Assembly: GCA_028284395.1 (NCBI GenBank)
Contig: JANQRV010000188.1
Span: 1 to 64,000 of the forward strand
DNA: 64,000 nucleotides
Direction: 5' to 3'
Source: Saprospiraceae bacterium
GTDB taxonomy: Bacteria; Bacteroidota; Bacteroidia; Chitinophagales; Saprospiraceae
Part shown: one piece after another, positions 5,140 to 34,618 of the stretch
How positions within the stretch are numbered: the first letter of the stretch is position 1
Layout: every line of letters starts with the position of its first letter
The notes under the pieces: generated by a model
Database searches by the model: none
Told to the model about the DNA's origin: nothing
What the model saw: the letters and a program-made list of their open reading frames with translations, nothing else
Program-made: the position numbers and the translations under genes

Positions 5140-6207
5140 ATGGCAAATAAAACCTCAGTATACGATAAGATCGTACGTCAGACCCATTTAAAAAACAAAT
5201 CCGATTGGGAAATGATTCGAACTGTCGATCTACATACTTGCGGCGAGCCCTTGCGGGTTGTCGTTGATGGTTTTCCTCAGTTAGAGGGCGATCGCGTTCT
5301 GGACTACCGGAACGATGCCCGGCAGCGTTATGATCATCTTCGCAGAGCGTTGATGTACGAACCAAGAGGACATGCAGATATGTATGGTTGTATACTCACG
5401 CCACCCAATGATGAGGGTGCAGACTTCGGGATCTTGTTTATGCATAATGAGGGCTACAGCACAATGTGTGGTCATGCAATTATTGGCATTACAACTTTAG
5501 CTTTGCAAATGGGGTGGATAGAGCAAAAAGCGCCGACCACCACCCTGCATATCGATGCGCCTTGTGGCCGTATAACTTCATTTGCCAAAATCCAAGATGG
5601 AGAGCTCAAAGGGGTCTCATTTCACTGTGTTCCTTCATTTGTGGTGGCCATGGATCAGTTAGTGGAGGTCTCGGGCTTAGGAAAAATCCAGTATGACTTG
5701 GCATACGGTGGTGCCTTTTATGCTTATGTAAACGCCGATCAAATAGATTTAGATCTAACGCCGGATAACTATAGCCGGATCATTAGCGCTGGCAAAGCAA
5801 TTAAACAAGCGGTTATGAATTCGGGTCAATCCATCAAGCACCCCTTTGAGGCCGATCTGAGTTTTTTGTACGGTATCATTTTCATTGGAGGGCCGGTAAG
5901 CACCGGAGTAGATAGTCGCAACGTCTGCGTATTCGCCGACGGCGAGGTTGATCGATGCCCCACCGGTTCCGGAGTTTCTGGCCGACTACCTATTCACTAT
6001 CATCGCGGAGAAATTGGATTGGGAGAAGAAATGACGATCGAAAGTATCATTGGCAGCAAATTCCGTGGTTCCATAGTACGAGAAGAAAAGTTCGGCCCGT
6101 TTAACGCCGTGATTCCTGAGGTACAAGGAACTGCACATATTACCGGTACCCACGAATTCATTATCGATCCAAAGGATGACTTGAAATATGGCTTTTTGCT
6201 CCGGTGA
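5140..6207 (+). CDS. proline racemase family protein, probable trans-3-hydroxy-L-proline dehydratase
   Basis: A 355-residue member of the proline racemase superfamily. The first catalytic site is intact: MCGHAIIG with Cys110. At the second site, where racemases have Cys, this protein has Thr275 in DRCPTGSGVSGR. Cys/Thr is the known signature of trans-3-hydroxy-L-proline dehydratase, which gives delta-1-pyrroline-2-carboxylate; Cys/Cys would mean a proline or 4-hydroxyproline epimerase. The neighbouring Cys273 is two residues off and is unlikely to replace it. The N-terminus carries about 24 residues before IRTVDLHTCGEPLR; an alternative start is Met25. Expected use is catabolism of collagen-derived hydroxyproline, although no pyrroline-2-carboxylate reductase is nearby. 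Confidence 0.87.
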   Translation: MANKTSVYDKIVRQTHLKNKSDWEMIRTVDLHTCGEPLRVVVDGFPQLEGDRVLDYRNDARQRYDHLRRALMYEPRGHADMYGCILTPPNDEGADFGILFMHNEGYSTMCGHAIIGITTLALQMGWIEQKAPTTTLHIDAPCGRITSFAKIQDGELKGVSFHCVPSFVVAMDQLVEVSGLGKIQYDLAYGGAFYAYVNADQIDLDLTPDNYSRIISAGKAIKQAVMNSGQSIKHPFEADLSFLYGIIFIGGPVSTGVDSRNVCVFADGEVDRCPTGSGVSGRLPIHYHRGEIGLGEEMTIESIIGSKFRGSIVREEKFGPFNAVIPEVQGTAHITGTHEFIIDPKDDLKYGFLLR

Positions 6208-6219
6208 AAGCATGGAAAG

Positions 6220-6265
6220 TTATCCACATTTTGTGGATTAATAAATGTGGAAAATTTGTTGATAA
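6220..6265. promoter_or_regulatory. cluster of four DnaA boxes upstream of dnaN
   Basis: The 46-bp segment holds one perfect DnaA box TTATCCACA (6220-6228, + strand) and three single-mismatch boxes on the other strand, read on + as TGTGGATTA (6232-6240), TGTGGAAAA (6246-6254) and TGTTGATAA (6257-6265). The first two face each other as an inverted pair. It occupies most of the 95-bp gap before dnaN, immediately upstream of a -7 element. It could be a DnaA-controlled promoter or part of an origin; dnaA itself is not in the window. Confidence 0.75.
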
Positions 6266-6269
6266 AGGG

Positions 6270-6277
6270 TAAGTTTG
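6270..6277 (+). promoter_or_regulatory. Bacteroidota -7 element of the dnaN promoter
   Basis: TAAGTTTG is an exact match to TAnnTTTG, 25 bases before the dnaN ATG. No clear -33 TTG sits at the usual distance; that zone is occupied by DnaA boxes, so DnaA binding would be expected to affect polymerase access. Confidence 0.55.
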
Positions 6278-6302
6278 TGTATTCAAACTCAATACAATCA
6301 TA

Positions 6303-7415
6303 ATGAAATTTAGTGTTTCTTCATCGGAGTTACTAAAGCAGCTTCAATTGGCGAGTGGTGCTATCGGAAGCAATAGCGTTCTGCCTATTCTAGAAGACTT
6401 CCTATTTACAATTTCAGGGAATGAATTGGCAATTTCTGCTACGGACCTTGAGACTTCAATTGTTACAAAAATTGAAGTTATGGCCGATGCCGATGGAATG
6501 GTTGCAGTCCCTGCAAAAATTCTGGTAGAAACACTAAAAGCATTACCTCAGCAACCCATCACATTTTCCATTGACGACAATTTTAGTATTCAGATCACAT
6601 CGGCCTATGGCAAATACCGTTTAGCTGGGGAGAATGGAAGTGACTTTCCAAAGATCCCGGAACCAGAACAAACGGATCACATAAAGGTGAGTGGGCAAGC
6701 ACTGCTTAGAGGAATTAACAAGACCATTTTTGCTACCAGTAATGATGAGTTGAGACAAGCTATGACAGGTGTCTATTTTAAGATCGACTTTAATAAGTTG
6801 ATCTTGGTAGCGACGGATGCCCATAAGTTAGTGAAGTATACTTATCAGGGAATTACTAGTGAGGTTTCGACTTCCTTTATCATTCCTAAGCGAGCCCTGC
6901 ATCTTTTGAAGAATGCCGCTTCCTCCGATGAAGATGTTAAAATTTCATTCAACAAATCCAATGCTTTCTTTGCCATTGGAAATACCGAACTGGTGTGTCG
7001 GTTGATTGATCAACGCTATCCTGACTACAACGCTGTGATCCCGGTTGATAACCCCAATTTATTGACGGTTACCAGAGATGATTTTCAGCAATGTTTGAAA
7101 CGGATTGCTATATATGCCAACAAGACGACCAACCAGGTTATACTCAATATAAATGCTGGAAGCCTTACTGTCAGTGCTCAAGATCTCGACTTCTCCAATG
7201 AGGCGACAGAACAGATGGCTTGCAATTATGAGGGCAATCCACTGACCATCGGTTTCAATGCCAAGTTTCTCGTTGAAATGCTGGGTGTACTGGAATCGGA
7301 TGATGTAAGGCTAGAACTCTCTACTTCTACTCGGGCCGGAATTCTTTCCCCAACAGAAAAAGAAGAATTCGAAGAAATTATCATGCTGGTAATGCCAGTA
7401 ATGTTGAGCAATTAA
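6303..7415 (+). CDS. dnaN: DNA polymerase III subunit beta (sliding clamp)
   Basis: 370 residues, the normal length for bacterial clamps. It begins MKFSVSSSELLKQLQLASGAI and has the three clamp domains in order: N-terminal with LPILEDFLFTISGNELAISATDLETSI, middle with GVYFKIDFNKLILVATDAHKLVKY, and C-terminal with RYPDYNAVIP and the end IIMLVMPVML (usual MPMRL-type clamp terminus, here MPVML). The clamp forms a dimeric ring that tethers polymerase III and recruits repair proteins. dnaA and recF are not adjacent, unlike the classic dnaA-dnaN-recF-gyrB cluster, though gyrB lies 25 kb away in this window. Confidence 0.98.
   Translation: MKFSVSSSELLKQLQLASGAIGSNSVLPILEDFLFTISGNELAISATDLETSIVTKIEVMADADGMVAVPAKILVETLKALPQQPITFSIDDNFSIQITSAYGKYRLAGENGSDFPKIPEPEQTDHIKVSGQALLRGINKTIFATSNDELRQAMTGVYFKIDFNKLILVATDAHKLVKYTYQGITSEVSTSFIIPKRALHLLKNAASSDEDVKISFNKSNAFFAIGNTELVCRLIDQRYPDYNAVIPVDNPNLLTVTRDDFQQCLKRIAIYANKTTNQVILNINAGSLTVSAQDLDFSNEATEQMACNYEGNPLTIGFNAKFLVEMLGVLESDDVRLELSTSTRAGILSPTEKEEFEEIIMLVMPVMLSN

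Positions 7416-32620: not shown

Positions 32621-34617
<1,997 letters not shown>

Positions 34618-34618
<1 letters not shown>

Follow-up and report, generated by a model that had tools for sequence, protein, structure and literature searches.

The window, that is, the whole 64,000-nucleotide stretch of DNA analysed here, lies on contig C60 (65,183 bp) of a fragmented Saprospiraceae (Bacteroidota) MAG of 11.15 Mb and 653 contigs. It carries the sliding clamp gene dnaN behind an upstream gap of 95 bp (6208-6302), which is mostly filled by promoter elements. The features discussed below are:

5140-6207, + strand: proline racemase / hydroxyproline dehydratase family gene, the upstream neighbour, outside the element
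6220-6228, + strand: DnaA box 1, perfect TTATCCACA (motif match), left arm of the dyad
6232-6240, - strand: DnaA box 2, TAATCCACA, second arm of the dyad, kept as TGTKRAT in relatives
6220-6240, + strand: inverted DnaA-box pair (dyad), TTATCCACA-TTT-TGTGGATTA, retained by relatives with a 50-bp spacing to the -7 element
6246-6254, - strand: DnaA box 3, TTTTCCACA, over the -36 to -28 region
6257-6265, - strand: DnaA box 4, TTATCAACA, at about -25 to -17
6270-6277, + strand: -7 element TAAGTTTG, fitting TANNTTTG (motif match)
6303-7415, + strand: dnaN, sliding clamp, 370 aa (TIGR00663, 265 bits against a cut-off of 138)
32645-34618: gyrB

For the product of the upstream neighbour, the top NCBIfam match was TransHydProDhtase, with 387 bits below the cut-off of 540. 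Motif matching confirmed the positions of the four boxes described in the first-pass annotation, one perfect and three with a single mismatch, and the -7 element was likewise found where it had been reported; gyrB is also present in the window. In flavobacteria, the sigma-A -7 box covers -12 to -5 (PMC9723704). Assuming the same numbering for the -7 element here, the dyad of the window lies at about -62 to -42 relative to a transcription start predicted at about 6282.

Conservation and spacing of the inverted box pair

Comparison with relatives showed that the conserved element is TTWTCMACA-N3-TGTKRAT, the window copy of which begins exactly 50 bp upstream of the -7 element. Spacing was assessed in 78 distinct dnaN upstream sequences from relatives that had not been selected for the motif. 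The distance from the TTWTCMACA box to TANNTTTG was 50 bp in 19 sequences, 51 bp in one and 52 bp in one, and each of two further distances was seen in a single sequence; in none of 200 shuffles did two sequences share a distance. A similar dyad starting 50-52 bp upstream of TANNTTTG was present at 22 unselected dnaN loci, the upstream regions of which are dissimilar outside the dyad and promoter. Since the ATG follows the -7 element at anything from 33 to 146 bp among relatives, the dyad is anchored to the promoter rather than the gene. In its left arm at these unselected loci, position 5 is always C and position 6 either C or A, and the right arm frequently reads TGTTAAT, which is poor as a DnaA box. 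Neither a search nor the sequence logo revealed a conserved TTTG at the -33 position of the dyad promoters.

The remaining two boxes behave differently. Box 3 shares its position with one relative (G080), is not conserved elsewhere and overlaps an A-tract that is conserved at offsets 31-34, while box 4 is mostly not conserved. With box 3 in G080 as the sole exception, boxes 3 and 4 were ruled out as a conserved feature and may have arisen by chance; for boxes 1 and 2, a chance origin is refuted. The poor conservation in relatives that the first-pass annotation had held up against its own reading is hence seen for boxes 3 and 4 but not for boxes 1 and 2. Its box cluster is real and goes beyond chance, yet the four members are not equivalent, since only the inverted N3 pair formed by boxes 1 and 2 is kept in relatives.

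Several other elements were observed before dnaN. The Saprospiraceae loci L042, L044, L046, L047, L049, L077 and L082 have no dyad and carry a different element directly before the -7 element, roughly AAGTTTAAAAAATGNNGGGAATCGTTTATTTTTG. Another group of dnaN promoters (L022, L045, L048, L050 and L051) has GGCAAAGGCATGCAAAAATGCTATTTTTG in common, and in the Chitinophagales/Sphingobacteriales MAGs a long conserved stretch near TGTCGAAAGATAAGATTTTCA precedes dnaN (L054, L056, L057, L058, L080 and L081).

Genome-wide, the gapped motif yielded 60 matches in 58 of 150 Saprospiraceae genomes, as compared to 0 for a reversed control pattern. The rest of the class (about 394 genomes) gave 13 matches against 4 for the control, which is near background, so the dyad is a trait of the Saprospiraceae. 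Among 30 family matches sampled, about 24 lie before dnaN and most of the others between corA and nrdB, upstream of nrdB, a class I ribonucleotide reductase gene. There, the distance from the dyad to a -7-like box, defined by a looser match than TANNTTTG, was 50 bp in 16 cases, 51 bp in three and 52 bp in one. The region upstream of nrdB is more elaborate: a group of tandem N5 and inverted N1 boxes is followed, across an AT-rich segment of about 55 bp, by the inverted N3 pair, and the two groups are 64-65 bp apart. The class II reductase gene nrdJ carries the dyad at seven of ten loci with readable upstream DNA, at 50 bp in two of them (three including the window's own genome) and at 61 bp, one helical turn more, in four. 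In the window's own genome (G000:C278), the nrdJ dyad is followed 50 bp downstream by TATCTTGG. An inverted N3 pair was also observed between parA-like and radA-like genes (L100, G005:C49:54716-57734) in a genome of which the dnaN promoter has no pair.

Replication origin and candidate binders

The first-pass annotation had also raised the possibility that the segment is part of an origin or a relic of one, a reading suggested by the fact that the box cluster adjoins dnaN, a gene often next to oriC. The relatives do not bear this out. In G084, a single contig of 7.5 Mb, the GC skew has its minimum and changes sign at about 2.35 Mb, whereas dnaN lies at 1.84 Mb. The switch is thus about 0.51 Mb away, at a cluster of DnaA boxes between scpA and ctaA, and the dnaN locus is not the origin in this relative. 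Within a 320-kb stretch of G016, the skew is negative throughout dnaN and flattens near ctaA, with no switch at dnaN; the skew of G147, taken from 20 sparse samples, was noisy. The 95-bp gap, largely taken up by promoter elements, holds no unwinding region with many boxes, high AT content and a length of some hundred bases; a box-rich region is found instead at ctaA. The ctaA loci of 23 genomes contain 194 DnaA boxes, with tandem N3 pairs just beyond ctaA in many of them. The cluster recurs in most relatives, while a few loci, such as L376, are box-poor. For genomes other than G084, we infer from these boxes that the ctaA cluster is oriC, making ctaA the predicted origin locus for Saprospiraceae. 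At this predicted family oriC (L280:16575-18802, L356-L378), boxes also occur within the ctaA coding region. The corA-nrdB region, with its box array and a skew change nearby in G002, was rejected as oriC for G084, where nrdB (0.30 Mb) is 2 Mb from the minimum; G002 itself lies outside this rejection.

Together with the skew of G084 and G016 and the conserved box-rich locus elsewhere, the fixed distance to a -7 element in place of an unwinding element and the equal presence of the dyad before nrdB and nrdJ make it very improbable that the segment is a chromosomal origin or its relic. Chance clustering deserves still less credence and is practically negligible. Single boxes in the window are indeed no commoner than expected (23 against 19.4 in shuffles), as a chance cluster would allow, but four boxes in 46 bp have a chance expectation of about 9e-6 per 64 kb, and the family matches outnumber a control of zero. 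When 30001 gaps with matching dinucleotide composition were simulated, none contained four boxes and one contained three. Clustered and paired boxes might alternatively titrate or reactivate DnaA while leaving dnaN transcription unaffected, considering that the datA and DARS sites of E. coli also have double boxes (PMC11317965). A site of that kind, however, would not be expected to be strictly phased to the -7 element or to turn up repeatedly at one class of genes, following even the change from nrdB to nrdJ, and we regard this explanation as distinctly improbable.

The question of which protein binds the dyad deserves more weight. A dimeric transcription factor other than DnaA, acting on dnaN and the reductase genes through half-sites that merely resemble DnaA boxes, would also give a palindrome, and would account for the two-fold symmetry, the strict N3 spacing and the invariant C followed by C or A in the left arm. 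It would equally explain why N3 pairs are inverted at promoters and tandem at ctaA/oriC, never reversed; 1.8 Mb of background contained one inverted and one tandem N3 pair. This orientation is the main reservation about DnaA, the E. coli double box being tandem. The frequent TGTTAAT right arm, the lack of a consistent box upstream of dnaA, which removes autoregulation of DnaA via the same dyad from consideration, and the missing dnaA of the window's own MAG also speak against DnaA. On the other hand, the half-sites equal the boxes of the family oriC at ctaA over the full 9-mer, including TTATCAACA and TTTTCCACA. The single, tandem N5 and inverted N1 boxes at nrdB would not fit one rigid dimer, and these differing arrangements point to recognition of the individual 9-mer. 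The obvious candidate, NrdR, was ruled out as regulator, its gene being absent from all 24 genomes tested (the control was positive in 9 of 14), and the targets are classical DnaA targets. We therefore consider a dedicated dimeric factor unlikely, although less so than the other alternatives. DnaA is favoured as the binder by the identity of half-sites and oriC boxes, the several arrangements at nrdB, precedents in E. coli and the GGRDH(S/T)TVI signature retained in domain IV of the relatives' DnaA. DnaA was found in 34 of 37 genomes searched, as a single copy in all but G043 and G046. The window's own genome (G000, completeness 94.8%) is one of the three without it, as no DnaA C-terminal domain was detected in its 653 contigs; given its presence in the other 34, this is likely an assembly gap.

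Proposed regulation and comparison with known systems

Taken together, we think it likely, judging from sequence, that dnaN and the ribonucleotide reductase genes form a regulon under DnaA control, probably activated, through double boxes that are inverted and not tandem. One factor would thereby probably turn on the clamp and the DNA precursors together. Both DnaA as the dyad binder and the sign of regulation are inferred. The first-pass annotation had proposed that DnaA directly controls clamp synthesis; at the sequence level this gains support from an inverted pair that dozens of dnaN promoters keep at a constant spacing to the -7 element, with DnaA as the presumed ligand. In the suggested mechanism, 6208-6302 would be the regulatory region of the dnaN promoter, which combines a good -7 element, no conserved -33 element and, upstream at about -62 to -42, the facing boxes at 6220-6240 as one bipartite site. 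A DnaA dimer or cooperative pair most likely occupies the dyad and, always on one side of the helix, assists RNA polymerase. This activator geometry is suggested by the missing conserved -33 TTTG, the position of the dyad upstream of the polymerase core site and spacings that are one turn apart. Clamp synthesis would then track the availability or activity of DnaA, to which an equally spaced copy of the site ahead of nrdB or nrdJ would also tie the supply of deoxynucleotides. If occupied, boxes 3 and 4 (about -36 to -17) would hinder polymerase and could provide this species with a brake at high DnaA, of the kind described for E. coli nrdAB.

We offer more tentatively, and at somewhat less than even chances, that box orientation acts as a code, tandem N3 pairs marking the origin and inverted N3 pairs, set off from the -7 element by full helical turns (50 or 61 bp), marking transcription targets. 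About as tentative are its variants, in which DnaA acts as a class I-like activator that uses pair orientation to distinguish origin from promoter, or an S-phase regulator reads DnaA-like half-sites without NrdR. The contrast between inverted and tandem pairs bears on how DnaA discriminates origin from promoter; the variant without DnaA, if true, would mean that an S-phase regulator ties the clamp to ribonucleotide reductase in bacteria lacking NrdR.

Elsewhere, DnaA is already known to control dnaN and ribonucleotide reductase. How initiation is linked to the provision of clamp and dNTPs has been described for a few model bacteria; the literature searched contained no such account for this Bacteroidota group. 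No work linking Saprospiraceae with DnaA and oriC was found, which, at the partial coverage of that search, is weak evidence of novelty, and inverted DnaA boxes were mentioned in the literature searched only for the Thermotoga origin. What the family adds is a short, precisely placed element that recurs at three replication genes (dnaN, nrdB and nrdJ), so that a class II reductase bears the same element as the class I enzyme.

Among known systems, the NrdR regulon resembles the one proposed here in that reductase genes are co-regulated through sites upstream of promoters, and differs in depending on a gene that the tested genomes lack. The NrdR box is a different palindrome.

A closer parallel is the double-box regulon of E. 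coli, where DnaA favours box pairs 2-3 bp apart and the targets include nrdA, nrdD, polA and purH (PMC11317965). Both systems pair 9-mers at this distance (N3 in the conserved dyad), often one strong and one weak; the Saprospiraceae 9-mers are within about one base of TTATCCACA, as seen for boxes 1 and 2 of the window, the 22 unselected dnaN loci and the oriC variants. Both also target two reductase classes and replication genes, that is, replication together with nucleotide synthesis. However, the listed E. coli pairs are tandem, whereas the Saprospiraceae promoter pair is inverted, lies 50 (or 61) bp from a Bacteroidota-type -7 element and has dnaN as a main target.

At E. coli nrdAB, DnaA activates at low level and represses at high DnaA-ATP (PMC8203912). 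Boxes likewise lie upstream of a reductase operon in both cases, and a high-affinity pair plus an extra box would offer the option of a two-level switch. The differences concern the sigma factor and promoter type, the box orientation, the NrdR partner, which was not found here, and the inclusion of class II nrdJ. In other bacteria, DnaA regulates nrdAB and, via the dnaA operon, dnaN (PMC8203912). The outcome proposed here, dnaN under DnaA, is therefore shared with the autoregulated dnaA-dnaN operon of B. subtilis and E. coli (PMC8203912), but here dnaN occurs by itself, separate from dnaA and in relatives also from oriC, and has a box pair of its own.
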